DNA of 64,000 bases from assembly GCF_008247605.1 (NCBI RefSeq), contig NZ_CP043420.1, forward strand, positions 372,001-436,000, written 5' to 3'. Shown here piece after piece: positions 33,870 through 51,902 of this stretch; position 1 is the stretch's first letter; each line of letters begins with the position of its first letter. The DNA comes from Kushneria phosphatilytica (GTDB taxonomy: Bacteria; Pseudomonadota; Gammaproteobacteria; Pseudomonadales; Halomonadaceae). Under the pieces are notes generated by a model that saw only the letters and a program-made list of their open reading frames with translations, did not search any database and was not told the origin of the DNA. The position numbers and the translations under genes were made by a program.

Positions 33870-33898
33870 GTGCTGAGCACGATAAAAAGAGGTTCACC

Positions 33899-35745: not shown

Positions 35746-35759
35746 AGCGGCAAACCAGG

Positions 35760-35780: not shown

Positions 35781-35804
35781 GGCTTCCCGAACGGGAGTTG
35801 AAAT

Positions 35805-36455: not shown

Positions 36456-36456
36456 G

Positions 36457-38091
36457 ATGACTACCTACCCGGTTCAACGAGAGCAGGCACCCGGCACTGT
36501 TGCCGAATCCGCCAATGAGCGTGAGGCTGGTTTGCAAAAGAAGGGTGAGCCGCTTGTCAGACTCCGGAATGTCAGCAAGCGCTACCCCGGCACACTGGCG
36601 CTGGATGATGTCAGCTACGCGGTCTATCCGGGCAGCGTTAATGTGCTGATCGGTGAAAATGGTGCGGGCAAGTCGACGCTGATGAAGATTCTCGCCGGTG
36701 CCGAACGCCCCAGTGACGGCGAGATTCTGGTCGATGATCACGCGGTGTCCTTCGGCGGCGTACGCGATGCCGAAAAGGCGGGCATTGGCATTATCTTTCA
36801 GGAACTCAATCTGTTCCCCGACCTGACCATTACCGAAAACCTGTTTATTGGCAGTGAAAAGCGTCGCCTCGGCCTGATTGATGTCGGCAGCCAGCAGCGT
36901 GATGCCAAAAAGCTGCTGGAACGCGTAGGGCTGCACCTGAACCCCGCGACCCGGCTGGGCGACCTGCATGTTGGTCAGCAGCAGCTGGTCGAAATTGCCC
37001 GTGTGCTGGGGCGCAATGTGCGGGTTTTGATCATGGATGAACCGACCTCGGCACTGAGCCAGACCGAAGTCGAGGTGCTGTTTTCGATCATCGAGAATCT
37101 GCGCCGCGAAGGGGTCGCGATTATCTACATTTCGCATCGCCTCGAAGAGATCATGCGTATCGGCGATCACATTACGGTACTGCGGAACGGTCGCGTAGTG
37201 GGGGTGGATCAGATTGCCCGAATCGATATCCCGTGGATTGTTCAGCAGATGGTCGGGGACGAAAAAAAGGCCTTCGATTACAGCCCTCGGGAAACAGGAG
37301 AGACGCTGCTGGCGGTCAGGAATCTGTGGCTGCGCCGCAGTAATGGCACGCTGGCGCTCGATAACATCAGCTTCACTGCCGGACGCGGCGAGATCATTGG
37401 CATCTACGGGCTGATGGGCGCCGGTCGTACCGAGCTCATGGAGGTACTGCTGGGGCTGCATGGTAGTGCGCGAGGTGACATCGAGCTGGACGGAAAGTCG
37501 CTGGCTCATGGCCAGCCTGCGCGCCATATCGGCGCGGGGATCGCGCTGGTACCGGAGGATCGTCAGAGTCACGGCATGTTTCAGCCGTTGTCAGTGCGCG
37601 ACAACATGACCCTTTCAAGTCTGAGGCGGTACTGCGGTGGGCTGCCCGGCCTCAATCTCATTATGTCACGCCGGGAACAACACCACTCCCGGCGGATGAT
37701 CGAATCACTGGGCATCAAGACGGCGGATGATACGCTGCCGATCACCTCGCTCAGCGGGGGGAACATGCAGAAGGTCGTCATTGCCCGTGCGCTTCTCACG
37801 CAGCCCCGGATCCTCCTGTTCGACGAGCCTACCCGCGGTGTCGATGTCGGGGCCAAGGCCGATATCTACCGCGCCATGAGCGATATTGCAGCCCAGGGCG
37901 TCACTATTCTCTACACCACTTCGGAACTGGACGAGGCGCTGGCAGTATCCGATCGGGTACTGGTCATGGCCGCCGGTCGCATCACGGCAGATCTACGCCG
38001 TGAAGAGGCCGATCGCAATCACATCATGCAGAAATCAGCGCCCACCGTCGTTTCCGACGAGGATGGCAGTACACAAGGAGTCTCGCAGTGA
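36457..38091 (+). CDS. Sugar ABC transporter ATPase (RbsA-like, duplicated)
   Basis: 544 residues from ATG at 36457 (AGGAGGGGC upstream). Two nucleotide-binding domains. The first has GENGAGKST, signature LHVGQQQLVEIAR and LIMDEPTSAL. The second has the degenerate Walker A GLMGAGRTE normal for this family, signature LSGGNMQKVVIAR and LLFDEPTRGVDVGAK. The N-terminal 30 residues are an unusual polar extension compared with RbsA. It energises the permease encoded by the overlapping next gene. Confidence 0.95.
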   Translation: MTTYPVQREQAPGTVAESANEREAGLQKKGEPLVRLRNVSKRYPGTLALDDVSYAVYPGSVNVLIGENGAGKSTLMKILAGAERPSDGEILVDDHAVSFGGVRDAEKAGIGIIFQELNLFPDLTITENLFIGSEKRRLGLIDVGSQQRDAKKLLERVGLHLNPATRLGDLHVGQQQLVEIARVLGRNVRVLIMDEPTSALSQTEVEVLFSIIENLRREGVAIIYISHRLEEIMRIGDHITVLRNGRVVGVDQIARIDIPWIVQQMVGDEKKAFDYSPRETGETLLAVRNLWLRRSNGTLALDNISFTAGRGEIIGIYGLMGAGRTELMEVLLGLHGSARGDIELDGKSLAHGQPARHIGAGIALVPEDRQSHGMFQPLSVRDNMTLSSLRRYCGGLPGLNLIMSRREQHHSRRMIESLGIKTADDTLPITSLSGGNMQKVVIARALLTQPRILLFDEPTRGVDVGAKADIYRAMSDIAAQGVTILYTTSELDEALAVSDRVLVMAAGRITADLRREEADRNHIMQKSAPTVVSDEDGSTQGVSQ

Positions 38092-39146
38092 CTACCATGA
38101 CCGGTACTCCCGATACCCATGGCAAGCGCCATGGCCGGCCTCTCTCACGTCTCATGCTGCAGTTTCTGAAGCTGAGAATTTTTGTTGCCCTGGTCGCCGT
38201 CGTCCTTTATTTCGCTCTGACTGCGAACAACTTCCTGACCACCGGCAACCTGCTGATCATGGCGCAGCACATTACCGTGATCGGTATTCTGTCGATTGGC
38301 ATGAGTCTTGTGATACTCACAGGGGGCATTGATCTTTCGGTAGGCTCGACCGTCGGCTTCAGCGGCATGTTTGCCGGCTATCTGATCATGCAGGGGATCC
38401 CGATCGGCGACCAGACGCTGTTTCTGAGCGTGCCGGGCGTTATTCTCGCTACCTGCCTGATCGGAGCACTTATCGGTCTGATCAACGGCGTACTGATCAC
38501 CCGACTCAATGTCGCGCCCTTTATTGCCACCCTGGGCATGCTCTACGTGGTACGTGGGGCGGCGCTGCTGTTCAATGACGGGGCAACCTTCTCCAGCCTG
38601 GGTGGCTATGAGGCACTGGATAACACCGGCTTTGCCATGCTGGGTAATGGTGAGTTGCTGGGGATCGGTGTCCCTGTCTGGATACTGGCCGTGCTGACAC
38701 TCGGGACATGGCTGGTCAGCCTCCGCACCCCGCTGGGACGACATATCTATGCCATTGGTGGCAACGAGCATGCCGCTCTCTTTTCAGGATTGCAGGTCAA
38801 GCGCGTCAAGATGTTCGTCTATGTGTTCTCGGGCTTCTGTGCGGCAATCGTGGGGCTGGTGGTGACCTCTCAGCTGCAGACTGCCCATCCAATGACCGGT
38901 GACACTTATGAACTTCGCGCGATCGCTGCCGTGGTACTGGGAGGAACCGCACTGGCGGGCGGCCGAGGTTCGGTGCTGGGCTCGGTGGTGGGAGCCTGTG
39001 TGATCAGTATCCTCAATGACGGCATGGTGATGTCAGGGGTCAGTAATTTCTGGCAGATGGTCATCATGGGGATCGTGATTATCTTCGCCGTGGTGATCGA
39101 CCAGCTGCAGCAGCGCCTGCAAAAGCGCGTCATGGTGGCCGGCTAG
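38088..39146 (+). CDS. Sugar ABC transporter permease (RbsC-like)
   Basis: 352 residues. A GTG start at 38088 overlaps the ATPase stop (GTGA) and has AAGGAG eight bases upstream; an ATG three codons later is the alternative. About ten membrane segments are visible, with family blocks TGGIDLSVGSTVGFSGMFAG, LNVAPFIATLGMLYVVRG and ELRAIAAVVLGGTALAGGRGS. It is the last gene of the polyol operon and forms the membrane channel with the DUF2291 and RbsA-like partners. Confidence 0.95.
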   Translation: MTTMTGTPDTHGKRHGRPLSRLMLQFLKLRIFVALVAVVLYFALTANNFLTTGNLLIMAQHITVIGILSIGMSLVILTGGIDLSVGSTVGFSGMFAGYLIMQGIPIGDQTLFLSVPGVILATCLIGALIGLINGVLITRLNVAPFIATLGMLYVVRGAALLFNDGATFSSLGGYEALDNTGFAMLGNGELLGIGVPVWILAVLTLGTWLVSLRTPLGRHIYAIGGNEHAALFSGLQVKRVKMFVYVFSGFCAAIVGLVVTSQLQTAHPMTGDTYELRAIAAVVLGGTALAGGRGSVLGSVVGACVISILNDGMVMSGVSNFWQMVIMGIVIIFAVVIDQLQQRLQKRVMVAG

Positions 39147-39169
39147 CGCCTCGACCGGGACGACACCGT

Positions 39170-39394
39170 TCAGCCTCGTTGGCTACCGGCGTCGTCGTGG
39201 TCATCAGAGCTGTGCGATGACGAAGCTTGTACGGGCTGATGTGCGTCGGCGCGGCTGCTCGGCGCCCGGGGGGCTGTCCGGGGCTTGTCGGGCATCGGAC
39301 GTCGGCTGCGTCGATGAAGCATCAGGAACCAGCCTCCCCAGGCCAGCAGCAGAAGGGTGATGGCAGTGATCAGTTTGCCCAGCAGTGGGGTCAT
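39170..39394 (-). CDS. Small single-pass membrane protein
   Basis: 74 residues: one N-terminal membrane helix (LITAITLLLLAWGGWFLML), then a basic and Ser/Asp-rich cytoplasmic tail (HRRSRRPMPDKPR...). GGAGGCGC precedes the ATG at 39394. No family recognised. It converges with the polyol operon. Confidence 0.5.
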   Translation of the reverse strand: MTPLLGKLITAITLLLLAWGGWFLMLHRRSRRPMPDKPRTAPRAPSSRADAHQPVQASSSHSSDDHDDAGSQRG

Positions 39395-39709
39395 GTGCGC
39401 CTCCGAAATAGTCCTGATAACTGTAGTTCAGATGTCGTCTGAACAAGTGAAGGAGGGCGAGCCCATCAGCGGTTCATTGCAACATGCAGCAATGGGGGCT
39501 TTCGGCATAACAGTATGAAGCCGGTAGGCTCCAGGTCAGGCAGAAATGCAGGGCCTGTCAGTCCGACGCCCTGGATGCCAACATGAAAAAGCCCGCGCGA
39601 AGGCGGGCGAAACAGCAGAGCAAAATGACAGGATTCACCCTGCACTATCACTGTGACGGTTTGTTGAACCCTTGAAGGTCAATAAAAGACACAGCCATCA
39701 CATCAATGG
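39395..39709. other. Intergenic region between two minus-strand membrane-protein genes
   Basis: About 315 bases. A rho-independent terminator for the upstream minus-strand gene is recorded at 39586-39608. No gene with a ribosome-binding site is visible. Confidence 0.5.
39586..39608 (-). terminator. Terminator for the 39710-39958 gene
   Basis: On the minus strand GCCCGC-CTTCGC-GCGGGC is followed by five Ts. It lies about 100 bases after the stop of the small membrane-protein gene. Confidence 0.7.
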
Positions 39710-39958
39710 CTAGCTGCCGTGCAGCTGAGCCTTGCGGCGCCGCGCGGGGGCTTCCACCCGGGCGTTCGGCACGGTACGGACTTCGCCCACCTGCTCGGTG
39801 GTAGGCATTTCAGCCACCTTGTTGTCCGCCAGTGACACTCGTCTATTGTGCTCCCAGCTCTGTGCCTGATCGTCTGCACGGCGTGACAGCATGAAGGCGC
39901 CAATGAAAAAAGCCACCAGCAGAAAATAGCCGGCACCCAGTAGTAGCATTGTCGTCAT
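39710..39958 (-). CDS. Small membrane protein with C-terminal basic tail
   Basis: 82 residues from ATG at 39958, set by GGGGGGAAAC just upstream; a longer frame upstream has no good start. One membrane helix (LLLGAGYFLLVAFFIGAFML) is followed by a polar tail ending in PARRRKAQLHGS. No family recognised. The nearest upstream feature is the structured repeat at 40381-40453 on the same strand. Confidence 0.6.
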   Translation of the reverse strand: MTTMLLLGAGYFLLVAFFIGAFMLSRRADDQAQSWEHNRRVSLADNKVAEMPTTEQVGEVRTVPNARVEAPARRRKAQLHGS

Positions 39959-39959
39959 G

Positions 39960-40665
39960 ATGTTTCCCCCCTTCGGAGGTGCAGCCCTCTTTGATTCGCC
40001 AGCCTCTGGAGTGCCGGCGGTGCGATTTGCGCACTTCACTCATACTCATTAACGGCAGTCTCGGTAGTTACTGTATCAGAGTGTTAATTTATGAAAGCAT
40101 TCGAGGCTTAAGAAATGGCTACTTCTTTGGTATGAGGTGTTTCTTCCGGGTTGGAGATACCTGAAAATCTCTTGCCATGACAGACGAAACAATGAGCCAT
40201 CAGGAACAGGAAAGCCCCTGACCCGAAGAGGCGTCAGATCAGGTTCCACAGCAAGCGGTGATGCTGTTGCCTGTAGGGTCTGATCCGCTGAAAAATAAAC
40301 AAGGGAAGAGTAGAAAGATGCTCGACCCGGTCGATCAGGCATCTGTTGCAAGATCTGGCCGGGCCGGCGCATCGGAAAGGGCCTCGAATCCTTCCGTGGA
40401 ACCCGTCGAGGCCCGTAAGACTCGGACGACTGGGCAACCTGCCCTTCGAGGCGTGAGGCCACGGTAAAAGCCGTCTCGCCGCGCGGGAGATTACATTGGT
40501 TAAGTTGTCGACATGGCTAACGCTCTTGATGATTTATTTTAATCATTGCTGCGATGTGAGCATTTTCACTGATGCGAATTTCGAGTACGGGGCATCGCAA
40601 CGATGATAGAGAGGGGGCTGCCCATGTCGGGTATGCCTGTCCACATGTCCGAATCAGGTGCGTCG
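39960..40665. other. 700-base intergenic region with structured repeat copy A
   Basis: No supported gene lies here. The region contains repeat copy A (recorded separately). Frames on the minus strand (to 128 codons) run through the repeat and have no ribosome-binding sites, and their sequence does not resemble a protein family. Confidence 0.6.
40381..40453 (-). repeat. Structured intergenic repeat, copy A
   Basis: Read on the minus strand: CCTCGAAGGGCA, a GGGCA-GGT-TGCCC hairpin, AGTCGT, a second short hairpin (CCG/CGG), then CGACGGGTTCCACGGAAGG and ATTCGAGGC. Here the ends also pair (GGGCCTCGA with TCGAGGCCC). The order of blocks is shared with copies at 45060-45132 and 47977-48060, while loops and stems differ in sequence. 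It is not a coding region or an intrinsic terminator. It could be an interspersed element or the core of a small RNA. Confidence 0.6.
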
Positions 40666-40914
40666 TTATTGCGAACTGTGGTGCGGCGTCATGTAACTCT
40701 TGAGTATGAGCTGGCTCTGGAAAACCAGAAAACCCACCAGCATGATCAGAGCGCCTGCTTTCAGGAATATCCAGAAAGCATGATCTTCCGGATACCGCAT
40801 GTTGATGGCCTGAAAGATTTGCAGGTCGGTCAGCAACTGGTGGGCGAACATGCCGATCAGAACACTGAGCGGGAAGATGGAGAGCCAGCGACACGCAAAA
40901 AGCATCTTTTTCAT
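40666..40914 (-). CDS. Small two-helix membrane protein
   Basis: 82 residues from ATG at 40914, after GAGGTTCCG. Two hydrophobic helices (WLSIFPLSVLIGMFAHQLL and FWIFLKAGALIMLVGFLVF) are joined by INMRYPEDHA. No family is recognised; the last residues (SYMTPHHSSQ) are polar. Probably an inner-membrane protein of unknown role. Confidence 0.6.
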   Translation of the reverse strand: MKKMLFACRWLSIFPLSVLIGMFAHQLLTDLQIFQAINMRYPEDHAFWIFLKAGALIMLVGFLVFQSQLILKSYMTPHHSSQ

Positions 40915-41142
40915 CGGAACCTCGCCATAATTTGGAAGGCAACCCAATGGGCAGGTTAATTCATGTTATCCGATGCTGGCTTCGGGGGATAGGCGCTATT
41001 GTCCCATGGACTTTTCGGTCTGAAGAGAGTAATGCCCCTTCCGGGGCAATATTTATCCATCATGTCACTGCGGTGTTCGATGGGGATTCTGCCAATGGGG
41101 AACGGCCCATCGCTGAAGCGATGGGGCCATGAAGAAGGTAGT

Positions 41143-41352
41143 TTACTCGCCGGCTTCCTGGTTCATGCGCTGGCAGTCTTCTTCTGCTTCCTCCCTGATG
41201 TCGTACTCATTGCCCACATATTGTTGTTGCTGCTGGTCATAGATACGAAAGCTCTCCAGCGGCATATCATTCGGGCCCTGGTTCTGCTCCCTGTTGGGAT
41301 CACCCTGAATATGTGATGTGGTGTGCTCGATAACTTCGAATCGCTTGGACAT
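41143..41352 (-). CDS. Small acidic/glutamine-rich hypothetical protein
   Basis: 69 residues, hydrophilic, with a QQQQQ run and an acidic end (DIREEAEEDCQRMNQEAGE). The ribosome-binding site is weak (GGAAAAA). It is probably soluble and disordered in part. Support is the codon usage and the clean start; no family recognised. Confidence 0.5.
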   Translation of the reverse strand: MSKRFEVIEHTTSHIQGDPNREQNQGPNDMPLESFRIYDQQQQQYVGNEYDIREEAEEDCQRMNQEAGE

Positions 41353-41744
41353 GGCTGTTTTTCCGTTTCATGACTTCATCAGCCAGTGTGGTTCCGCCAT
41401 GTCGTGAATGCCACTGTAGGCCGGTTTTTGATAAAAAAGCCTGCTGGGAAGCGAGCGATAAAACGAAGTGAAACGACAGAGTGATTCTACATGTCGCTTG
41501 TGACCATTTATTGAGTACAAACGCGCGACTCTCTCCGGCGGCTTCTTTCACTTCACCGGAGACTCTCTCCGGTATACGGGTCTGCAATTCAGTGAACCGT
41601 GCGAGATGTGCCCTGCGGCATGACAGGCAATCGTTTTTGAAGGTAGGAGCTGATCCGGCACAGTATCTGATGGTTTCGGTCGATAGCCGACAGTTGTGAA
41701 AGAAAGTAACTTTCCCTGGTTTTAGTAACAGGGCGTGTTCACCC
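41353..41744. other. Intergenic region with short direct repeat
   Basis: About 390 bases without a supported gene. A 12-base direct repeat, GACTCTCTCCGG, occurs twice about 35 bases apart (near 41527 and 41562), and the second copy forms a hairpin CCGGAGA-CTC-TCTCCGG. Its meaning is unknown. Confidence 0.4.
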
Positions 41745-41924
41745 GTGACCGATCAGTCCCCTCCAACGCTACCCCTGACGCCAAGATGCTATCTATGCGG
41801 TTGTCATCTGCTTGCCATCGAGTCTCAGGAGCAGGAGAAAGAGTCCGCGATCGTGAAATGTGGACGTTGCAAGAGTTATCTGGGCCGGGCAGAAGATCTG
41901 GTCGCCGGTATACACGATGAGTAA
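41745..41924 (+). CDS. 59-codon Com-like zinc-ribbon protein, GTG start
   Basis: 59 residues read from GTG at 41745. Cys15 and Cys18 (RCYLCGCHLL) and Cys39 and Cys42 (VKCGRCKSYL) form a zinc ribbon of the same spacing style as phage Mu Com, with the typical HLL and SYL after each pair. Mu Com controls translation of a DNA modification gene. No modification gene is adjacent here. The ribosome-binding site is weak, and a stop lies just upstream in frame, so the start must be near this GTG. Confidence 0.6.
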   Translation: MTDQSPPTLPLTPRCYLCGCHLLAIESQEQEKESAIVKCGRCKSYLGRAEDLVAGIHDE

Positions 41925-42121
41925 GGAGCGGCAATAGAAAACCTGCTCTCTGTTCAGGCAAAAAGCACATGATCCCCATCGTAAGGTGATGCCACTTCCA
42001 TCGACTGATCAGGTATGAGGCCGAATGGTCCCCTCATGCTTGCTACACTTCGGGCCGATATCGAAAGTGACATGCATTGCTGCACTTCCCGGAACCGAAC
42101 AGTCAAAGGGGCACGGTCCTC

Positions 42122-43531
42122 ATGCGCTCTGAACATTCGCCGGATCAGGATGAGCTGCTGATCGGGTTGCATCATCTGCTGATTGATCATTTTGATGATC
42201 TGCCCTCGTTCATCCCGGCCTGCCTTGAAACCGGGCGACAGTTGCTGGGTCTATCGACCGGTATTTTCAGCCGAATCACTGGTAGTGATTATGAGGTCGT
42301 GGATGTCCTGACCCCCCTGGAGGGGGTCCACCGTGGCGATCATTTTTCGCTTGTGGATACCTATTGTAATGCGGTCATCCAGGCTGGAGCGCCTACCGCC
42401 TATCATGCGGTCGGTGAGATGGCGGATATGCAGCAGCATCCGGTCTATATCGGTTTGCGGCTGGAGTCCTATATCGGCGTGCCGGTCTATACGACCGATG
42501 GGGTTTTCGGCACTCTCAATTTCAGTGATCTGGCGCCTCGCAGTACGCCCTTTGGCAAGCGCGAGATTCGAATCCTCGAAGTCATGGCGTCGATGCTGGG
42601 CCGATTGATCGAACGCGAGCAGGCGCAGAGTCTGCTGTTCGAGCGCGAAGAGATGTTTGAAAAGGGATTTCGTCATGCCATCGTGGCCAAGGCCATTGCG
42701 CGCCCCGATGGTCTGATCATTGACGTCAATGATGCCTTCTGCCGGCTGTTCGGCTACCCGCGCGATCAGTTGCTGGGGCTGACGCCGGCTGACCTGACGC
42801 ATCCTGAAGATCAGCATCTTACGGATCAGCAGTATCGTGAACTGTTCAGTGGCACACGCGACTACTTTGTTGCCGAGAAGCGCTATGTCACTCGCCAGGG
42901 CACAACCATCGAAACGCAGATTTCAGTGGCTCTGGTACGCAATGAGGAAGGCGCGCCCGGTTATATCGTTTTCGAAGGTATCGATCTGACCGAGAAAAAC
43001 CGCACCGTACGGGAGCTTGAACAGGCCAATCAGCGGCTGCAGCTGTTTGCGCGAACCGATGCGCTGACCGGACTGCCCAACCGCCGGGCATTCGATGAAG
43101 CGCTGGAGCGCGAGTGCGCGCGAACCCAGCGCACCGGGGAAACGCTTTCAATCATCATTATCGATCTGGATTACTTCAAGCGCATCAATGATCGCTATGG
43201 CCATGGTATTGGCGATGAAGTGCTGGTGAAGCTGGCCGATGTACTGCGCTCCGTTGTTCGCCGTTCGGATCTGGCAGCGCGTCTGGGGGGGGAAGAGTTC
43301 GTCGTGTTGCTGCCTGAAACGACCGCTGCGGCGGGGACCAGACTGGCCGAACGACTGCGTCTGGCGCTGCATGCCGTCACCTGGCCGGGCGAGCCGGTGA
43401 CAGCCAGTTTCGGTGTGGCCGAGTACGATCATGAGTCGATGAGTCCGAAAATCCTGCTGAATCTGGCTGATGAAGCTCTCTATGCAGCCAAGGCGGCAGG
43501 GCGCGATCAGGTGATGAAGGCCGAGCAGTAG
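42122..43531 (+). CDS. GAF-PAS-GGDEF diguanylate cyclase
   Basis: 469 residues from ATG at 42122 (MRSEHSPDQ); an in-frame ATG at 42077 is possible. A GAF domain (LETGRQLLGLSTGIFSRI...SYIGVPVYTTDGVFGTLNF) is followed by a PAS domain (IVAKAIARPDGLIIDVNDAFCRLFGYPRDQLLG...) and a GGDEF domain with intact active site (ARLGGEEFVVLLPET) and LTGLPNRRAF. It should make cyclic di-GMP in response to a small ligand or redox state. No membrane segment, so it is cytoplasmic. A bidirectional hairpin follows the stop. Confidence 0.93.
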   Translation: MRSEHSPDQDELLIGLHHLLIDHFDDLPSFIPACLETGRQLLGLSTGIFSRITGSDYEVVDVLTPLEGVHRGDHFSLVDTYCNAVIQAGAPTAYHAVGEMADMQQHPVYIGLRLESYIGVPVYTTDGVFGTLNFSDLAPRSTPFGKREIRILEVMASMLGRLIEREQAQSLLFEREEMFEKGFRHAIVAKAIARPDGLIIDVNDAFCRLFGYPRDQLLGLTPADLTHPEDQHLTDQQYRELFSGTRDYFVAEKRYVTRQGTTIETQISVALVRNEEGAPGYIVFEGIDLTEKNRTVRELEQANQRLQLFARTDALTGLPNRRAFDEALERECARTQRTGETLSIIIIDLDYFKRINDRYGHGIGDEVLVKLADVLRSVVRRSDLAARLGGEEFVVLLPETTAAAGTRLAERLRLALHAVTWPGEPVTASFGVAEYDHESMSPKILLNLADEALYAAKAAGRDQVMKAEQ

Positions 43532-43561
43532 GATGTCGAGGTCATGGTAGGGCAGTCAGCT

Positions 43562-43583
43562 GAGCCCGCAATAATGCGGGCTC
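43562..43583. terminator. Bidirectional terminator
   Basis: Perfect stem GAGCCCGCA/TGCGGGCTC with an ATAA loop, placed between two converging genes (ending at 43531 and 43593). T tracts are short. Confidence 0.55.
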
Positions 43584-43592
43584 CGGCAAACG

Positions 43593-43913
43593 TTATGCCT
43601 GACGAACTTCCAGATGGGTGATCTCAACGCCATTGCGAGCAAAGCACATGGCGACATCGGCACCGGTCATCAGGTTGTCCGAGTCATCGAGTATCAGCTG
43701 ACAGCTGGCGCCATTCAGCTGTAACAGACGAATGGCACCCTGATAGGCCGTTTCCGGGCTGTCGTAAGTCTGTCCCACCGGGCTGTACCACCCGTCCACG
43801 CCGATGAACAGGCGGGTGCCGAAATCGGTCTCGTTCATTTCCAGCATGATCCGATGCGTGCCCTGTGGCTGCACGATTCTGGCCTGCTGTACCGCGATGG
43901 TTGCATAGCCCAT
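43593..43913 (-). CDS. Hypothetical protein
   Basis: 106 residues from ATG at 43913, after GCGAGGTGCTC; the frame extends 15 codons further but with no better start. Soluble, beta-rich sequence (IVQPQGTHRIMLEMNETDFGTRLFIGVDGWYSPVGQTYDSPETAYQGAIRLLQL). No family recognised. Confidence 0.55.
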   Translation of the reverse strand: MGYATIAVQQARIVQPQGTHRIMLEMNETDFGTRLFIGVDGWYSPVGQTYDSPETAYQGAIRLLQLNGASCQLILDDSDNLMTGADVAMCFARNGVEITHLEVRQA

Positions 43914-44142
43914 GAGCACCTCGCCTTTCCAACCGGATATGTCCTTTTCTATGTACAACAGTGTATCGGGTACGTATTTATGACTTTCGTCGGCCGCGCC
44001 TCGGATGGCTTTATTCGATACCTGGATGGTGACGGTGTGCGTGCCCCGAAGTCAGATTGCACTGGAAATGGTTGATGCCTTTGAACGCTGATAAGCCATT
44101 ATGTCAGGCAAAATCTGTTGTTTAATGCTTAAGTATGATGAT

Positions 44143-44241
44143 CAGTCTTTGAAGACTGAAGCAGGTTCTACTAATAATGGAGGTGACAACCGAATGTTGT
44201 CACTCCAATCCCTTCCCCCCGGCTTCTGCCGGGTTTTTTTT
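44143..44241 (+). ncRNA. Candidate small RNA with three hairpins and terminator
   Basis: In an intergenic region with no plus-strand gene upstream to terminate, three hairpins follow in series: CAGTCT-TTGA-AGACTG (44143-44158), GTGACAAC-CGAAT-GTTGTCAC (44183-44203) and an intrinsic terminator CCCGGC-TTCT-GCCGGG with eight Ts (44218-44241). An orphan terminator behind two perfect stems is the usual mark of a small RNA. The 5' end is not defined. A purine-rich GGAGG lies at the base of the second hairpin. Confidence 0.55.
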
Positions 44242-44318
44242 GTCCGGTATTCGCATTGAAGCAGGGAGGGCAGGCACTGTTGGTGGAAAAGAATTGTTGG
44301 GCCGACAAAAGGGTATAA

Positions 44319-44339
44319 GGCCTGACAGGTCGTCAGGCC
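44319..44339. terminator. Hairpin downstream of 44364-44633 gene
   Basis: Stem GGCCTGAC/GTCAGGCC with a 5-base loop lies 25 bases past the minus-strand gene stop. The T tract is poor, so termination may be weak. Confidence 0.4.
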
Positions 44340-44363
44340 AGGGTGACAGGAAGATTGGATCCG

Positions 44364-44633
44364 TTACTTGTGACGTGTACGCCCGGCTCGTCGTACCAGA
44401 TAGAGATGAAGACCGGCGACAAGGTTCATCACGGCCAGAATGATGACGATCAGTGTCCCGAGGGGGCGGGGCATCGAGACGGCCTGAAAGACAACCGGCA
44501 ATCCGATCAGAAGTGCCATCAGCAGCCAGATGCCATCGAACACGGGTTTGGCAGTCGAGCCATCATCTTCAGGTGGCTGGCGAAACAGGCGATCCAGAGT
44601 TTGCTGAATCAGGTGATAGAGAGTCCTTTTCAT
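44364..44633 (-). CDS. Small two-helix membrane protein
   Basis: 89 residues. A charged N-terminal segment (LIQQTLDRLFRQPPEDDGST) is followed by two membrane helices (IWLLMALLIGLPVVFQAVSM, then LIVIILAVMNLVAGLHLYLV) and a basic end (RRAGRTRHK). Family not recognised. A start after GGAGGCA is clear. Confidence 0.65.
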   Translation of the reverse strand: MKRTLYHLIQQTLDRLFRQPPEDDGSTAKPVFDGIWLLMALLIGLPVVFQAVSMPRPLGTLIVIILAVMNLVAGLHLYLVRRAGRTRHK

Positions 44634-45715
44634 GTCATTGCCTCCTTGTAGAACCGGCTACACATATGCCGGTGATCCCTATAGTGCCTGTTTGGGTGGC
44701 CTCTGAAACTCTTTTGAAGGCGTCGCATGGAGGGCTTAAACGCAGGCACGGCATGACAGGAAAGGCGCACGTGGTATCAGCCGTCTGCTCAGCAGGCGTG
44801 ACGCGGCATTGGGTTGTGGTTTACCGCCATACCCGGCAGCACAATGAAGGATCGCCTGGTGATCGGCGCAGGAAGAGAGGGGAGGTTTTCTGACCACGGA
44901 AAGCGGAAACCGCCTGAGGCTGGCACTGGTATGGGCGCCACGAAACGGTATCCGCTGCACCCTGGCGCCTCGGTAATGAAGCTGATGCGATGAAAGGAAA
45001 AAACGGCAATACAAGGTGAGGGCGCTGGTGATCTGCCACCGGGGCCTGAATAAAGAGGTGCCTCGAATCCTTCCCTGGAACCCGTTCAAGTCCATTGAAC
45101 CCAAACGGCTGGACGCCATGCCCTCCGAGGCTAAGCACAGGGTAGGAGGGAGTAGATGGTGCAACAAGGTCTTTGTCCAAAGATTGCATCATTTTTTCGC
45201 GTTCAAATGTGTAAAGGTTACTTTCCATAACATAGGTAATTAAAGGAAGTGATTTTTGCTCGTTATCAGTTGTCATGGCATCAGCTTTCTTCAAGCAGAC
45301 AGCATCTTTATTACCTGGAATAATGAAATCCCTCACCTTCCCTGTGCTGGCGTTAAGCAGGCTCGCTGTAGCCTTGCGCCTGAAGCTGTCTTCCCATGGA
45401 TGGGGGTACTTGCCGCATTGAATGACCTCGCCAACGCCTTGCGTGGCGGGCACTTGAGTCTTGTCCATGACCCTTTGTCGATCTGAAGCATCATGAGAAG
45501 GTGCTCTGTTTCCGGTCAAAAGGAGCGGGGATAAATCTCTGCCATCGCAGGAGAAATGGCCGGCCGTCATGCTCCGGTTTTTTTCTGGTGTATTGCATCA
45601 AATTCTGAAGTGGCTTTTATGGCCGTTTGCATTGTCCGGTGATCGTGAACTAGCTTTTTTCAGACTTAAATGAAAGCGGGCTTTTCCGATCACGCACAAC
45701 AGATGAGGTGGTGCC
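44634..45715. other. 1.1-kb intergenic region with structured repeat copy B
   Basis: No supported gene. Repeat copy B lies at 45060-45132. A 249-codon open frame on the minus strand (44821-45570) runs straight through the repeat, lacks a ribosome-binding site and resembles no family, so I treat it as chance. The stretch 45140-45300 is AT-richer and may be acquired DNA. Confidence 0.5.
45060..45132 (-). repeat. Structured intergenic repeat, copy B
   Basis: Minus strand: CCTCGGAGGGCATGG, CGTCC closing the first hairpin, AGCCGT, second hairpin GTTCAA-TGGAC-TTGAAC, then GGGTTCCAGGGAAGG and ATTCGAGGC. It matches copy A almost base for base in the GGGTTCCA-GGAAGGATTCGAGGC block, while the second hairpin has changed on both sides and still pairs. 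That compensation suggests selection for RNA structure. Confidence 0.6.
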
Positions 45716-47134
45716 GTGAGTGATACCGATCTGGGCACAATGGATGCCGGTCAGCTGAGCGAATTGTTCAGAACCGGCAAGGCGTCCCCCCTGGAGGCAA
45801 CACGCGCTGCGCTCGAGCGTATCGAGCGCTTCAATGACAAGGTGAATGCCTTTGTCCATGTGGATCGGGAAGGGGCGGAAAAGGCTGCCCGTGCTTCTGC
45901 CCGCCGCTGGGGCCAGGGGCAGCAGCTGAGCCCCATTGATGGTGTTCCGGCTTCTCTCAAGGATCTGACCGAGGTGGCAGGCATGCCGGCTCGTGAGGGC
46001 TCGCTGACCACCTCCGATGATCTGTGCGAACAGGATGCGCCACCGGCGCAACGTCTTCGTGAAGCCGGCGCTGTATTACTTGGTAAAACCAACACGCCCG
46101 AATTCGGCTGGAAGGGGGTGACCGACAACCGCGTATTCGGTGCGACCTGCAACCCCTGGGATACTCAGCTGACACCTGGGGGGTCTTCTGGTGGTGCGGC
46201 AGCGGCGGCTGCCCTCAACATGGGCGTGCTGCACCAGGGCGGTGATTCCGGTGGGTCGATCCGGATTCCGGCGGCCTTTACGGGCGTGTTCGGTTTCAAG
46301 CCGACCTTTGGCTGGACCCCGCAGTGGCCGCCGGCCAAGATGCCGTCGCTTTCGCATATCGGGCCGCTGACGCGCAATGTGCGTGATGCAGCCCGCATGC
46401 TCAATGTGATCGGTCGCTACCACTATCGCGACCCCTATGCCGTGCGCGGTGAGCCGGAAGATTGGGGTGTGGACCTCGACAAGGACTTGCGTGGGCTGCG
46501 TATCGCCTATTCGCCTGACCTGGGCTATGCGAAGGTGGACCCTCAGGTAGCCCAGCGGGTACGCGAAGCGGCGCAAAAGCTGGAAGCGCTGGGTGCCGAA
46601 GTCGAAGAGATCCACCCGGGTTTTGAATCGCCGATCAATATCTTTCAAACCATCTGGTTCACTGCCTCACTGGAGCTCTACTCGCAGTGTGATGAGCGTC
46701 AGCGCCAGTTGCTCGATCCCGGCCTGGTTGCGAAAGCGCATCGCGCCGAGAACTGGAGTGCCGTGGAGCTTTTCCATGCCGAGGCCGAACGGGCACGATT
46801 GACCATGGCGCTCGAGAAGTTCAACCAGGACTACCATCTGGTGATGACACCTTCGGTGCCTATCGAGCCCTTTGCCATCAATCAGGAAGTGCCGCCTGGC
46901 AGCGGGATGCAGGATTGGGAAGAGTGGTCGCCCTTCTCCTATCCCTTCAACCTCAGTCAGCAGCCGGCAGCCTCCGTGCCGTGTGGCTTTACCGACAAGG
47001 GATTGCCGGTCGGCTTTCAGCTGGCAGGGGGCAAATATGATGATGTGCGAGTGCTGCGTGCCTGCAATGCGTTCATGGAAGCCCATCCCGCGCGCTACCC
47101 CACGGTTCCCGATCCGGCCGAGTATGCCGGCTGA
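45716..47134 (+). CDS. Amidase-signature family hydrolase
   Basis: 472 residues. GTG start at 45716, after GAGGTGGTGCC. The amidase-signature triad is visible: Lys82 (GVPASLKD), the cis-Ser of TPGGSSGGAAAAAA (155-166) and nucleophile Ser181 (GGDSGGSIRIPAAFTG). The C-terminal ASVPCGFTDKGLPVGFQLAG block is typical. It hydrolyses an amide or carbamoyl compound to acid and amine. The gene 113 bases downstream encodes an EctC-like protein, which hints at a diamine or N-acyl amino-acid substrate, but this is inference. It may equally be a general amidase. Confidence 0.92.
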   Translation: MSDTDLGTMDAGQLSELFRTGKASPLEATRAALERIERFNDKVNAFVHVDREGAEKAARASARRWGQGQQLSPIDGVPASLKDLTEVAGMPAREGSLTTSDDLCEQDAPPAQRLREAGAVLLGKTNTPEFGWKGVTDNRVFGATCNPWDTQLTPGGSSGGAAAAAALNMGVLHQGGDSGGSIRIPAAFTGVFGFKPTFGWTPQWPPAKMPSLSHIGPLTRNVRDAARMLNVIGRYHYRDPYAVRGEPEDWGVDLDKDLRGLRIAYSPDLGYAKVDPQVAQRVREAAQKLEALGAEVEEIHPGFESPINIFQTIWFTASLELYSQCDERQRQLLDPGLVAKAHRAENWSAVELFHAEAERARLTMALEKFNQDYHLVMTPSVPIEPFAINQEVPPGSGMQDWEEWSPFSYPFNLSQQPAASVPCGFTDKGLPVGFQLAGGKYDDVRVLRACNAFMEAHPARYPTVPDPAEYAG

Positions 47135-47247
47135 GTCCGGCATCAAGTGAATTCCCTGGTTGGGCGCAGTACCGATCAGTGGAAGTGGAGCACCGTCAGG
47201 GAGCGGTGCATTTCAGACTGAAAATCGAAAGCAAGGAGTCGCATTCG

Positions 47248-47649
47248 ATGATCGTTAGAAGTCATGAAGACGCCAGGAAGACCGAAGTCGACGAAGACAA
47301 GTTCATCAGTCGGCGTTATACCCTGCGTGCTGATGGCATGGGTCATTCCTTTCACGAGACCTATATCAAACCCGGCCAGTCACTTCACATGTGGTACAAG
47401 CACCACAAGGAAACCGTGATCTGTGTCGAGGGCAAGGGCCAGATCGAGGATCTGACCGAAGGCGGCAAGTGGGATCTCGAGCCTGGTACGCTATATGCGC
47501 TGGACAAGCATCAGAAGCATATCCTCAGCAGTGAAAATGGTATGCGAGTGCTCTGCTGCTTCTCGCCCTCGCTGGTGGGTCCCGAGGATCACGACGAAGA
47601 GGGCAGCTATCCCCTTTATGATGATGATGGCAGTGTCATCAAACGCTGA
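47248..47649 (+). CDS. Solitary EctC-like (ectoine synthase family) protein
   Basis: 133 residues from ATG at 47248 (AAGGAGTCGCATTCG upstream). The cupin fold of ectoine synthase is recognisable: MIVRSHEDARKT at the start, WYKHHKETVICVEGKG, TLYALDKHQKHIL and CCFSPSLVGPEDHDEEGSYPLYDD. The iron ligands of EctC align (Glu55, Tyr83, His91). It departs from canonical EctC in the N-terminal third and around residue 45 (SLHMWYKHH for ETHIHYKHH). ectA and ectB are not here, so it is an orphan paralog. It may cyclise N-acetyl-diaminobutyrate or a related compound. A strong terminator follows. Confidence 0.83.
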   Translation: MIVRSHEDARKTEVDEDKFISRRYTLRADGMGHSFHETYIKPGQSLHMWYKHHKETVICVEGKGQIEDLTEGGKWDLEPGTLYALDKHQKHILSSENGMRVLCCFSPSLVGPEDHDEEGSYPLYDDDGSVIKR

Positions 47650-47703
47650 TGAGTGAGCGGAGCCCTTTTTACGGGCGTCCGCCATGACCAGTGTCGATCC
47701 TTG

Positions 47704-47730
47704 CGCCCGACCGCTCCGGTCGGGCGTTTT
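47704..47730 (+). terminator. Intrinsic terminator after the EctC-like gene
   Basis: Perfect 10-bp stem CGCCCGACCG/CGGTCGGGCG with a CTC loop and TTTT. Confidence 0.85.
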
Positions 47731-47748
47731 GCGTTCGATCCATCCTGT

Positions 47749-47774
47749 AAAAAAGCCGCCCCGTGAGGGGCGGC
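47749..47774 (-). terminator. Terminator for minus-strand transcription
   Basis: On the minus strand GCCGCCCC-TCAC-GGGGCGGC is followed by six Ts. The nearest minus-strand units upstream are repeat copy C and the lysis cassette, so one of these transcripts probably ends here. Confidence 0.8.
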
Positions 47775-47976
47775 GATATGGATCGTTACACAGCTTGTTC
47801 AGAATAGCGCGCCGGACGAGCTGAACCATTCCCCATTGGAGGCAGAGGTTGTAGTTCCAGAACAGAGGGCCTGGCGGAAGTTCGATGAAAACGATGGAAG
47901 ACAGGGGTGCTATAAGCGGAGCGGGTGCATTCCGAATCTGTAAAAATTCTGTTAATGGTTGACAATAGGGAGGGGT

Positions 47977-48060
47977 TGCCCTGACTCCATCCCTGGAGCC
48001 CGTGCAATCCGCTTAAAACGGATGATCAGCGACGGCTGGGCTTGCTGCCCTTCAAGGCGG
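47977..48060 (-). repeat. Structured intergenic repeat, copy C
   Basis: Minus strand: CCTTGAAGGGCAGC, closing AAGCCCAG, AGCCGT, second hairpin ATCCG-TTTTAAG-CGGAT, then CACGGGCTCCAGGGATGG and AGTCAGGGC. It keeps the block order of copies A and B, but with a new second stem that still pairs. A minus-strand terminator lies about 200 bases downstream. Confidence 0.58.
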
Positions 48061-48144
48061 AAAAGAGTGTATAGCGCATTCAATTCTTCTACAAGGTTGT
48101 GCTGAAAAGAGGTGCTGTTTTTTCTATTGAATAAATCGGAGGGT

Positions 48145-48237
48145 GACAGGTTCCGTAACATGGACTAAACAGAAAGAGTCGATATACCCCTGTCGTCAAC
48201 AGTGTTGGGACCCGGCCTTTCGAGGCCGGGTTTTTTT
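48145..48237 (+). ncRNA. Candidate small RNA ending in a UUCG terminator
   Basis: An orphan intrinsic terminator on the plus strand (CCCGGCCT-TTCG-AGGCCGGG plus seven Ts, 48211-48237) has no plus-strand gene before it; the EctC-like gene has its own terminator 500 bases earlier. Upstream are a long-range stem (GACAGG 48145-48150 with CCTGTC 48189-48194) and CAACA-G-TGTTG (48197-48207). A GGAGGG precedes the first stem. The 5' end and promoter are not defined. Confidence 0.5.
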
Positions 48238-48269
48238 ATGCCGGCTGTCTATGGTGGGGGCAATCGGCA

Positions 48270-48620
48270 TTACGGTGTCGGCTCGGACAAGGTATCGTCA
48301 TTATGGTCCGCCTTCTGAAGCCGGTTTGGTAAACCATCTTCCGGTGCACCCTCGTCCAGTGGCGCGTTTGTCGCCCCATGACAGGCAATGATGGCATCCA
48401 CTTCTGCCGCGCAGCGCGCCCAGGCCGCTTCGGTCCGCTCCAGCTGAAGATGCAGCTCACCGTTGGTCGTCGGATGGCTGGCTGGTAGCGTGCAGGGGCT
48501 TGGAGTCGCGCAGCGATTGACGATAAGCGTCGGCGCCGGTGACGGCATCTCGCTGGCGCAGCCGGATAATCCCACCAGGCAGGCGCTGATCAGCCCACTG
48601 CTGAATTTTGACATTTTCAT
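48270..48620 (-). CDS. Rz1-like outer-membrane spanin lipoprotein
   Basis: 116 residues from ATG at 48620, read in a different frame from Rz and starting inside it. A lipoprotein signal is clear (MKMSKFSSGLISACLVGLSGCAS, lipobox LSGC). The mature part includes Pro-rich PSPAPTL and a helical QLERTEAAWARCAAEVDAII. Nested overlap with Rz is the classic Rz/Rz1 arrangement. With Rz it would fuse inner and outer membranes at the final step of lysis. It extends further beyond Rz than in lambda. Confidence 0.82.
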   Translation of the reverse strand: MKMSKFSSGLISACLVGLSGCASEMPSPAPTLIVNRCATPSPCTLPASHPTTNGELHLQLERTEAAWARCAAEVDAIIACHGATNAPLDEGAPEDGLPNRLQKADHNDDTLSEPTP

Positions 48621-48897
48621 GCTGTAACTCCCGGATATGTTCAAGGCGGTCGGAGGCGACGCGTGCCAGTTGGGCACGACGCTCGGCCAGCTGCTGTCGC
48701 TGTTTCTCGAGTCGTCTGGCGTTGTGCCAGAGGGCATCGATGACCAACTCGCGACGCTGGGATTCGACCTGTTCGCGAATGAGTTGCTGACGTACCTGGT
48801 CAACCTGTGCGGCGGCCGCGGCACTGCGTTCCCAGAGCGCCCAGCAGCTCAGCGCAAGCGTCAGGATCACGACGCCAATAGCGAGATAGCGGGTCAT
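48457..48897 (-). CDS. Rz-like inner-membrane spanin (i-spanin)
   Basis: 146 residues: N-terminal membrane anchor (YLAIGVVILTLALSCWALW) followed by a long coiled coil (RSAAAAAQVDQVRQQLIREQVESQRRELVI...RLEKQRQQLAERRAQLARVAS). It overlaps the endolysin stop by four bases and contains the start of the Rz1-like gene. This is the standard i-spanin layout. Confidence 0.87.
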   Translation of the reverse strand: MTRYLAIGVVILTLALSCWALWERSAAAAAQVDQVRQQLIREQVESQRRELVIDALWHNARRLEKQRQQLAERRAQLARVASDRLEHIRELQHENVKIQQWADQRLPGGIIRLRQRDAVTGADAYRQSLRDSKPLHATSQPSDDQR

Positions 48898-49382
48898 GGC
48901 TCAAGCTCCTTCAGGCAGAGGGCGCGTTCGGTCCGCCGGCGCCTGACCAGGCCTGGCAGGGTCCTGCCCCCGGCGTGCACCCAGCGCGTCAGCTCATTAC
49001 AAGCCGCACGGGGTTTGCCGGCGTTGAGCTTGCGCAGCAGGGTGGAGTTGCGAAAATTGCCTTCTCCCACGTTGAAAATGAATGAAGCCAGTGCGGCACG
49101 CCGACTCTCCGGCATACGTCGATACACGGCCGGGTCGACCTGGCGTTTGAGTGCTGTGAAGGCTTCGCCAAGATCCTCTTTCAGCAGCGCATCACAGCGT
49201 TCGTCACTGAGGCGCTCGCCCGCTCTGACCTCGGCGCCGGTATGGCCGGTGCATACGGTAGGTATCCCGACCGGATCGAGATAAGCCGTATTTTCGGTGC
49301 CCTCGAAATAACCAACCACCGCGGCTGCAATCGAGAGCGCGCCGGCCGAGCCGGTAGCGAGCAGTCGTCGGGGGATTTTCAT
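48894..49382 (-). CDS. SAR-type phage endolysin (glycoside hydrolase 24)
   Basis: 162 residues from ATG at 49382, set by GGGAGGAAAC. The catalytic triad has the GH24 spacing E-8-D-5-T (Glu27, Asp36, Thr42). The N-terminus is a weakly hydrophobic Gly/Ala-rich segment (ATGSAGALSIAAAVVGY) typical of signal-arrest-release endolysins, which are exported by Sec and released from the membrane to become active. It overlaps the holin stop (ATGA) and the Rz start. It cleaves peptidoglycan in the periplasm. Confidence 0.9.
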   Translation of the reverse strand: MKIPRRLLATGSAGALSIAAAVVGYFEGTENTAYLDPVGIPTVCTGHTGAEVRAGERLSDERCDALLKEDLGEAFTALKRQVDPAVYRRMPESRRAALASFIFNVGEGNFRNSTLLRKLNAGKPRAACNELTRWVHAGGRTLPGLVRRRRTERALCLKELEP

Positions 49383-49600
49383 GTTTCCTCCCGGCGATGA
49401 TGGCGTCGCCCTCTCTGCACTCGCCATTGCTGAAAGCGATGCACGTATTTGGTGAGAATCAGGCCGATCTGGAGCGTCAGGTAGCACAGCGTCAGTACGC
49501 TCACCCAGTCGGCCGGCGTCATCCCCCCTGCATGCAGCAGGGAAACAAGTCCCGGTGGGATGGCCCGGGTGGTTTCGGTAACCAGTGTCGTCAACGGCAT
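49379..49600 (-). CDS. Small phage-type holin
   Basis: 73 residues with one central membrane helix (WVSVLTLCYLTLQIGLILTKYV) and a strongly basic C-terminus (RVQRGRRHHRREET), as in small pinholin or HP1-like holins. It is the first gene of the cassette and overlaps the endolysin start by four bases. It would depolarise or permeabilise the inner membrane and release the SAR endolysin. Confidence 0.78.
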   Translation of the reverse strand: MPLTTLVTETTRAIPPGLVSLLHAGGMTPADWVSVLTLCYLTLQIGLILTKYVHRFQQWRVQRGRRHHRREET

Positions 49601-49885
49601 TTTTCCTCCCGCTTTGGCGCTGATGGTGCCGAAGTGTCAGTCGAAGGTATTAGATTCGGCGCCCGACAGACTTACGCTACCGTTGGCCCGTATATGCCTG
49701 CCATGGGAAGCGGGTGTCGCAGGAGGTTCGTAATCGCCTGTTGCGACAAGGAGTTATGTTGATAGGCGGCAGGAATTCGGCATATCGCCGGTTGATCAGG
49801 AGTTGTGCCGACAGGTTGGTTGTTTTTTCTGCCACGGCCCACCAGGGTAATGAGTCGGCAATCATCGGTTGGTCGGGAGGTGAAC

Positions 49886-50872
49886 ATGTTTCGGGCAGTG
49901 CTGATCGAGCGTGATGAAGCAGGTTATCGCAGTCAGCTGAAGGAGCTGGATGAGGCGCAACTGCCGCCGGGTGATGTCACCGTGCGGATTACGCACTCGA
50001 CGCTCAATTACAAGGACGCACTGGCGATTACCGGCCGTGGTCGGATTGTGCGTGATTTCCCGATGGTGCCCGGGATCGATTTTGCTGGCACTGTCGAGAG
50101 CAGTGACCATCCCGATTACCGCCTCGGCGATGCCGTGCTGCTCAATGGCTGGGGCGTCGGTGAGTCGCACTGGGGTGGCCTTGCGGAAAAGGCTCGGGTT
50201 GACGGGGATTGGCTGCTACCGCTGCCACAGGCGTTCAGTCCGCATCAGTCAATGGCCATCGGTACGGCCGGTTATACAGCGATGCTCTCGATCATGGCGC
50301 TGGAGCGTCAGGGGGTTACTCCGGAGCGTGGCGATATCCTGGTCACCGGAGCCAGTGGTGGCGTCGGAAGTTTCGCCATCATGTTGCTGGCGACGCTGGG
50401 CTATCGGGTGATTGCGTCCACCGGGCGGGTGGACGAGCGTGAGTATCTGCAGCGGCTGGGGGCTGCTGACGTCATTGACCGTCAGACACTTGCCGAACCC
50501 GGGCGTCCGCTGGAAAAGGCCCGTTGGGCGGGGGCCATCGACTCCGTGGGCAGCCATACGCTGGCAGGTGTCTGCGCCGGCATGCAGCGCGATGGTGTCG
50601 TGGCCGCCTGTGGGCTCGCGCAGGGGATGGATTTCCCTGCCACGGTGGCGCCCTTCATTCTCAGGGGGGTGACGCTGGTGGGTATCGATAGTGCCATGCG
50701 AGCGCGTGAGGACCGGATAACGGCATGGCAGCGCCTTGCCACGACGATTGATCCGCAACGGCTGAATGAGGTCAGTCAGGAAATCGGCCTCACCGAGGTC
50801 ATCGATACGGCAACCGACCTGATTGACGGGCGAGTCCGCGGCCGCAGGGTCGTGCGCATTGACGAGCAGTGA
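49886..50872 (+). CDS. YhdH/AcuI-family NADPH-dependent quinone oxidoreductase (acrylyl-CoA reductase-like)
   Basis: 328 residues from ATG at 49886 (GGGAGGTGAAC). Medium-chain reductase family: THSTLNYKDALAITGRG, VPGIDFAGTVESS, LNGWGVGESHWGGLAEKARV, IGTAGYTAMLSIMALE and the nucleotide-binding VTGASGGVGSFAI. Members reduce acrylyl-CoA or quinones. AcuI matters in marine and halophilic bacteria for acrylate from dimethylsulfoniopropionate, but no other dmd or acu genes are adjacent. The first in-frame ATG upstream lacks a ribosome-binding site. Confidence 0.92.
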   Translation: MFRAVLIERDEAGYRSQLKELDEAQLPPGDVTVRITHSTLNYKDALAITGRGRIVRDFPMVPGIDFAGTVESSDHPDYRLGDAVLLNGWGVGESHWGGLAEKARVDGDWLLPLPQAFSPHQSMAIGTAGYTAMLSIMALERQGVTPERGDILVTGASGGVGSFAIMLLATLGYRVIASTGRVDEREYLQRLGAADVIDRQTLAEPGRPLEKARWAGAIDSVGSHTLAGVCAGMQRDGVVAACGLAQGMDFPATVAPFILRGVTLVGIDSAMRAREDRITAWQRLATTIDPQRLNEVSQEIGLTEVIDTATDLIDGRVRGRRVVRIDEQ

Positions 50873-50913
50873 AACGGCTACGGCCGGAGGCGGGCGTGTC
50901 CCGGCCGTGGTCT

Positions 50914-51189
50914 TCAGATATTGAGTTTGTGCATGGCAATCGCCTTGGCAGCGCGGAGCGCGGCAGGCTGATCGAAATCCGCGCCCAGGTCGGCCAGCGT
51001 CGTCAGCTGTTCGGTCAGCCTGCTTTCGCTCAAATGGCCGGCAGCCAACGAGGCTTCATAAGCGAAGTGAGCCGCGACTTCATAAGGCTCATGGGTGGGG
51101 GTGCCGCCCTGATTGATGATTTCGGCCACTCGCTCGAGGCTGAGCGTCTGTCTCAGCGTCTCGCATGATGAAGTGTTAAAAGCTTCCAT
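50914..51189 (-). CDS. Hypothetical helical protein
   Basis: 91 residues from the third codon of the frame (MEAFNTSSCETLRQTL), which lies closer to GAGGTGTGCAC. Helical and Ala-rich (AAHFAYEASLAAGHLSESRLTEQLTTLADLGAD). No family recognised. It is convergent with the YhdH-like gene. Confidence 0.55.
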   Translation of the reverse strand: MEAFNTSSCETLRQTLSLERVAEIINQGGTPTHEPYEVAAHFAYEASLAAGHLSESRLTEQLTTLADLGADFDQPAALRAAKAIAMHKLNI

Positions 51190-51195
51190 GTGCAC

Positions 51196-51541
51196 ACCTC
51201 GTACTCTTCCATGAGTCGACCACAGGGTCGGTTGAACTGACAGCCTGCGTCTCCCGGCCGTTCAGTGAAATGACATGGGTTAGAAAGTCAAAAAAGTAGC
51301 GGTGACGGCCGTCAGTTGGCTTGTGCCGTTGAAGAGCCCGGCAGGTGTCCCAATGCTCGTACTGCACAGCGCGCACTGGATATTTCCGGGCGCTCCATGG
51401 TCGGTCGATATTTTCGATTGGGCGGCATACGGTGCGACGGCCGGAAAAATCCGGTAACTGGCAGAGTGAATCCAGGTTATGGCGGTGTGCGAAGCTCGGA
51501 TAGACAATGCAGCGTCATGACCCATCGGGAGATCACACATC
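51196..51541. other. Intergenic region
   Basis: About 345 bases with nothing I can support as gene, terminator or repeat. It presumably holds promoters for the two divergent flanking genes. Confidence 0.5.
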
Positions 51542-51739
51542 ATGTCGAGCGAATCCAGAAAACCGCTCAAGAAAAAACTGACCGGTCGCGTCCTTGAAGA
51601 GATCGGTGTCGTACTCAACAGCGATACGGTCTATGACAAGGGCAAACGAGAAGAAATCATCGCCCGCCTCCGCAAGGAGAAGGGGCTCAGTCAGGAGGAA
51701 GCCGAGCAGGAAGTGGATCGCTTTCTGGATAGCGTTTAA
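51542..51739 (+). CDS. Small hypothetical protein
   Basis: 65 residues, hydrophilic, with a charged C-terminal helix (KREEIIARLRKEKGLSQEEAEQEVDRFLDSV) and a basic N-terminus (SRKPLKKKLTGRV). Could be a nucleic-acid or ribosome-associated protein. No family recognised. Confidence 0.6.
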   Translation: MSSESRKPLKKKLTGRVLEEIGVVLNSDTVYDKGKREEIIARLRKEKGLSQEEAEQEVDRFLDSV

Positions 51740-51846
51740 CGCCTGCTCATTCGGTACTTTTGAAATGACCCATTGCCCGTGCCGGGGCCTCGTGGCTTCC
51801 GATGGGCGCGGCGGGCGATGTTCGTGCCGAACAGGGCATAAAAAGC

Positions 51847-51868
51847 GAGCCCGCCATCAGGCGGGCTC
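51847..51868 (-). terminator. Terminator for the CsbD/DUF883-like gene
   Basis: Stem GAGCCCGCC/GGCGGGCTC; on the minus strand it is followed by GCTTTTTAT. It lies 35 bases past the stop at 51903. Confidence 0.8.
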
Positions 51869-51902
51869 CTTGTCTATCGGAAACCTTTCGGCTTCCGGGG
51901 CT

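Follow-up and report, generated by a model that had tools for sequence, protein, structure and literature searches.

A family of structured minus-strand elements, probably small RNAs, in Kushneria phosphatilytica and a sister species

Three related elements within 7.7 kb

We analysed a window of 64,000 nucleotides (nt) of the Kushneria phosphatilytica genome (contig NZ_CP043420.1, positions 372,001 to 436,000), in which three copies of an intergenic element, here called A, B and C, lie on the minus strand, all within 7.7 kb. Scores are those of R1, a covariance model made from A, B and C; primes mark the orthologues in the sister species (genome G103, locus L227).

40381-40452, minus strand: copy A, cloverleaf element of 72 nt, 90.8 bits
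45060-45131, minus strand: copy B, cloverleaf element of 72 nt, 93.6 bits; orthologue B' at L227 9919-9990
47977-48058, minus strand: copy C, cloverleaf element of 82 nt, 79.8 bits; orthologue C' at L227 12202-12284

A preliminary description of this DNA had noted three copies in the same minus-strand orientation with one shared order of blocks, and the searches bear this out. Since R1 contains the copies that it scores, reciprocal sequence profiles were built as an independent test of homology. When only A, B and B' went into the profile, it recovered C (E 1.5e-6) and C' (E 3.6e-6), with the next match at E 1.5; when only C and C' went in, it recovered B (E 1.3e-5), B' (E 2.7e-5) and A (E 5e-5). 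In the 82 kb searched, the strongest match of either profile outside the family had E 0.4. A and B are identical, without gaps, at 54 of 72 positions (75%), and a self-comparison of positions 35001-52000 of the window found this pair at E 2.6e-7, with the homology confined to the 72-nt element. A, B and C are one family of common origin, whose copies probably arose by local duplication, a birth traceable in two species. They are the only strong R1 matches in the 3.62-Mb genome; the fourth match scores 14.8 bits and has no cloverleaf fold. A supposed fourth copy at 58242-58310 had to be given up: its fold is less stable than those of its shuffles (z +0.90), and the model, searched over a set that included the whole window, matched nothing there up to E 1.

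Among ten genomes of the genus, matches were found only in the genome itself and in the sister species, which holds orthologues of B and C at corresponding places, in DNA with the shared order GGDEF gene, open reading frame (ORF) of 89 amino acids (aa), B, amidase gene, C, lysis cassette. In the other eight genus genomes neither the GGDEF protein (at E ≤1e-100) nor the 89-aa protein (at E ≤0.001) had a match. The elements are islands of conservation: B and B' are identical at 67 of 72 positions, where the neighbouring 50-nt blocks reach 32/50 and 26/50, and C and C' at 65 of 82, where they reach 30/50 and 8/50. Better conserved still, at 44/50, is the block that lies 101-150 nt upstream of C, which is part of a plus-strand unit at 48143-48240. 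The roughly 13 kb at 28156-41149, with copy A among them, have no match in the corresponding sister-species DNA (515054-522163 of contig C1).

Many intergenic matches across the family had been expected; they were not found in 275 family genomes, with 17 to 24 candidates scored in each. In the family and order searches together, each genome had 12 to 24 of its candidates scored, so that divergent relatives may be missed. Five family genomes matched at E ≤0.01: besides the genome itself and the sister species, these were three single matches of 25.6-27.1 bits, each within an open frame of at least 150 aa, and no convincing further copy was present among the part of the candidates scored in the 275 genomes. 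Among 390 genomes of the order three matched, the genome itself and two with single matches at 31.9 and 26.4 bits. The better of these, the best weak match of all, lies within an open frame of at least 150 aa, as do 26 of the 28 weak-match loci tested, which is weak evidence in GC-rich DNA. The other (L256 1501-1556, minus strand), in a genome from another family of the order, lies between ORFs and without such a frame, and at minimum energy it folds into the same cloverleaf, with UCC[AGGGAA]GGA as P4. This locus has no match up to E 1 in the other four genomes of its family, one of them of the same genus, and we leave it unsupported, as two other-genome matches at E ≤0.01 among 390 genomes are no more than the E-values predict.

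In wider collections, a loose pattern retrieved at least 118 stretches of genome contigs and 48 of viral contigs, and R1 run over the 166 loci so obtained scored nothing above 20.0 bits. Four viral loci reached 20.0 bits at the same model positions, and in the one examined the match falls inside a 496-aa ORF. Tighter viral scans (1 and 5 stretches) gave a best R2 score of 21.4 bits, in a match that leaves P4 and some of P1 unpaired, and a further match to the P4/P1 pattern, at 15.4 bits, was not a cloverleaf. The plasmid and phage collections, queried with B and its flanks, held no match.

A cloverleaf kept through compensatory changes

All five copies fit a cloverleaf in which four helices meet at a four-way junction: P1 of eight pairs, P2 of four, P3 of five common pairs with a variable extension, and P4 of three pairs capped by a hexaloop. 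P1 (GCCTYGAA/TTCGAGGC) is the outer helix; the preliminary description had missed it. Of the 100 pair cells of the five copies 99 are standard, the sole exception being an A-G in C. Four pairs are changed on both sides, in seven cells, and three of the four belong to P1. None of 500 shuffles came up to the copies in paired percentage, in number of changed cells or in covariation score. When partners were slid by one to three columns, pairing fell to 25-51%, a control that favours any structure read from the same sequences; RNAalifold, run unguided, returned 25 pairs, including 19 of the 20 modelled ones.

The changes between orthologues are the cleaner structural evidence. From B to B', a C-G pair becomes U-A in P1, a G-U becomes A-U and a C-G becomes U-G; from C to C', two C-G pairs become U-G, a U-G becomes C-G, a U-A becomes U-G, and the exceptional A-G is restored as A-U. 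Neither comparison breaks a single modelled pair. Read as minus-strand RNA, the pair cells comprise 90 Watson-Crick pairs, nine G-U, no A-C and one other, and as the nine G-U pairs would be mismatched on the other strand, the minus-strand RNA is the selected form. The structure is under selection, in minus-strand RNA, and the earlier proposal that it is kept through compensatory changes is confirmed by the pair cells and the shuffle tests. That proposal had rested on a second hairpin with different bases and the same pairing in each copy, of which only the part concerning C stands: its ATCCG/CGGAT is the P3 extension, which in C' reads GTCTC/GAGAC. The GTTCAA/TTGAAC hairpin of B is broken in B' (C to A), where a longer stem continuing from CCGT/ACGG is kept, and for A the predicted stem is CGAG/CTCG instead of CCG/CGG.

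For cores of 76-86 nt the minimum-energy fold is a four-helix cloverleaf in all five copies, including the 76-nt core of A. Forcing the common standard pairs costs 0 kcal/mol in A, 0.4 in C, 1.9 in C' and 7.6 in both B and B'; the cost is high in the last two because their P3 pairs in another register.

Probable small-RNA genes and the alternatives

Sequences around B and C resemble the start, and after C also the end, of a transcription unit.

45139-45167, minus strand: promoter-like boxes of B, TTGTTG-17-TACCCT, 7 nt ahead of the element
48066-48094, minus strand: promoter-like boxes of C, TTGTAG-17-TACACT, 7 nt ahead of the element
47755-47774, minus strand: candidate intrinsic terminator of the C transcript, eight G-C pairs followed by TTTTTT

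Boxes are also present ahead of C' (TTGTAC-17-TACACT, 7 nt spacing) and B' (TTGTCG-17-TAATCT, 8 nt). A terminator lies about 200 nt downstream of both C and C' (the latter at L227 12021-12004), and the stretch with the C terminator (47749-47842) is 78% conserved in the sister species; terminator-like sites numbered 14 and 7 in the scanned regions, against 7.7 and 3.5 in shuffles. We predict, from the sequence, the start and end of transcription for B and C, and found no start for A. The reading that we favour, and hold to be rather likely, takes A, B and C for minus-strand genes of sibling small RNAs, paralogous to one another and each starting with the cloverleaf. Each transcript would begin within a few nucleotides of the compact 72-82-nt cloverleaf, that of C would continue past it to the terminator about 200 nt further on, and the siblings would share the 5' cloverleaf and differ in their 3' parts. 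A new small-RNA family under selection for RNA structure had been among the first suggestions made for this DNA, and the covariation, the polarity of the G-U pairs, the island-like conservation and the promoter-like boxes support it.

Several observations pull the other way. The covariation rests on few sequences, five from two species, and 15 of 500 shuffles have at least as many pairs changed on both sides, and 182 at least as many pair types. Folding energies are unremarkable against shuffles (z -0.60 for A, -1.94 for B and -1.64 for C). A with short flanks takes a different minimum-energy fold, and when transcript ends are guessed, giving stretches of 145-313 nt, something other than the cloverleaf is predicted for B, B' and C', the mean P1 probability being 0.84 for A, 0.02 for B, 0.30 for B', 0.69 for C and 0.00 for C'. 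The promoter-like boxes are weak and were not flagged by consensus promoter scans in either species, copy A has no such boxes at the corresponding place, and the terminator scan gave no clear terminator for B.

The elements might instead be leader domains, cis-regulatory and riboswitch-like, of longer minus-strand transcripts, A serving ORF 39710-40039 and B the 89-aa ORF (44364-44633). These are the next minus-strand ORFs after A and B, the 89-aa ORF is kept in the sister species at 63% identity, and a compact junction RNA at the start of a transcript is typical of leaders. Against this, the gaps to the ORFs are about 340 nt (A) and 430 nt (B), the sequence from B to its ORF is poorly conserved (26, 30, 18, 15 and 15 of 50 in successive blocks), and C is followed by a terminator and by no kept minus-strand gene; we regard leaders as unlikely. 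The copies might also be a mobile non-coding repeat, or sites at which an integrated element recombines, which would fit the restriction of the A/B homology to the 72-nt element and the position of A within the stretch of about 13 kb without synteny in the sister species. However, three copies in 3.62 Mb, B and C at orthologous places, one RNA strand under selection and the negative plasmid and phage searches make this reading quite improbable; the preliminary description had offered the mobile repeat, and for its other suggestion, a processing signal, we found no evidence here. That the similarity merely reflects a conserved protein frame is hardly credible: frame 0 has no stop in any of the five copies, but the A/B differences in it fall 4, 8 and 6 by codon position, with 12 nonsynonymous codons and one synonymous, B/B' shows three and one, a 1-nt indel splits the C/C' frame, and B/B' have another just ahead of the element. 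These codon tests agree with the initial description of the copies as non-coding. Near the predicted end of the C transcript, an ORF of 16 codons, equally long in both species, was set aside, since by eye most of its codons differ in amino acid.

The surroundings of C hold further features. The plus-strand unit at 48143-48240 resembles a small RNA of about 70 nt, with boxes GTGACA-17-TAAACA (by eye) and a terminator-like hairpin (GGGACCCGGCC/GGCCGGG) with a T run; the terminator was flagged in the sister species, where the unit is well conserved (44/50 in one block), and its Rfam matches are sub-threshold only, the best being anti-hemB (21.7 bits against 49.5). A lone lysis cassette lies on the minus strand (48457-49487), made up of a Phage_lysozyme protein (48894-49487) and an ORF (48457-48897) without a Pfam match that we take to be Rz-like; in the sister species an ORF ahead of the cassette (L227 13609-13872) is presumably holin-like. 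On the plus strand, 47179-47649 is a second ectoine-synthase-like gene (PF06339), the other match of its own genome lying at C1:1784354-1784764. The single match to this protein in the sister species is on contig C3 (44% identical), so that the gene is missing there between the amidase gene and C.

The P4 loop, Csr/Rsm sites and known RNAs

The P2 and P3 loops vary, whereas the P4 loop is A[C/G]GGA[A/U] with C-G closure in all five copies.

40392-40397, minus strand: P4 hexaloop of A, ACGGAA, read from the sequence
45071-45076, minus strand: P4 hexaloop of B, AGGGAA, read from the sequence
47989-47994, minus strand: P4 hexaloop of C, AGGGAT, closed by C-G, of the ANGGAX type, read from the sequence

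According to passages of one study, the high-affinity form for RsmE is an ANGGAX hexaloop placed directly on a stem, with N and X variable, and the stems of RsmZ, in which stem-loops carrying eight GGA motifs stand in a row, are closed by C-G (PMC4005645). The two positions at which the P4 loop varies are those variable in Csr/Rsm sites. C and C' contain CARGGAUG, the core of the SELEX consensus RUACARGGAUGU as given in part of another report (PMC6849547). Each of the ten genus genomes has one csrA match, and one study includes a Halomonas CsrA (PMC12889724). It is conceivable, with the balance leaning somewhat against it, that the P4 hairpin binds CsrA/RsmA through its ANGGAX hexaloop. The RNAs might then compete for CsrA, or might use CsrA while their differing 3' parts do something else. 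Two facts count against this part of the interpretation. C-ANGGAW-G sites are not rare, the window having 22, of which nine have three pairable stem bases and only three of these nine (the other six lying outside) are in the elements; and each element has one conserved GGA loop, against several in known Csr RNAs. More tentative still is the fuller proposal of a new RNA family, restricted to one small bacterial lineage, in which a 5' cloverleaf with one high-affinity CsrA hexaloop at its four-way junction is carried by siblings with different 3' parts and CsrA control is joined to target-specific action. Were the CsrA reading true, the cloverleaf would present a Csr/Rsm site compactly, where RsmZ uses hairpins set in a row.

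The only Rfam match at gathering thresholds in the whole window is a tRNA, and when the thresholds were relaxed over the copies, nothing came up but plus-strand overlaps below threshold, with MEG8_2 at A (16.3 bits) and CRISPR-DR12 at C (17.4 bits), and none at B. With no Rfam family at threshold here, the elements would add a lineage-specific structured RNA. No such element appears in the titles or abstract openings of the literature on small RNAs of Halomonas or Kushneria, among the matches listed, nor in those of the literature on cloverleaf or four-way-junction small RNAs.

Three kinds of known system invite comparison. Dispersed palindromic repeats and integron attC sites are likewise structured intergenic repeats in the same orientation, but here there are three copies, at fixed places in two species, with one RNA strand under selection, and no attC end motifs were seen by eye in the alignment of the copies. 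NmsRA and NmsRB of Neisseria are described as a structurally near-identical pair with 70% sequence identity at one locus (PMC5362039). They are sibling RNAs, as A and B, at 75% identity, would be; unlike them, the copies here lie kilobases from one another, with intervening genes, diverge after the cloverleaf and are small RNAs by prediction. With the Csr/Rsm RNAs (RsmZ, RsmX, RsmY and CsrB) the elements share the ANGGAX hexaloop on a C-G-closed stem, in a genome with csrA. Since several GGA loops were not found within the element, we do not class it as a sponge of the CsrB/RsmZ type: where RsmZ strings eight GGA motifs along a row of stem-loops, the element has one conserved GGA loop at a four-way junction.

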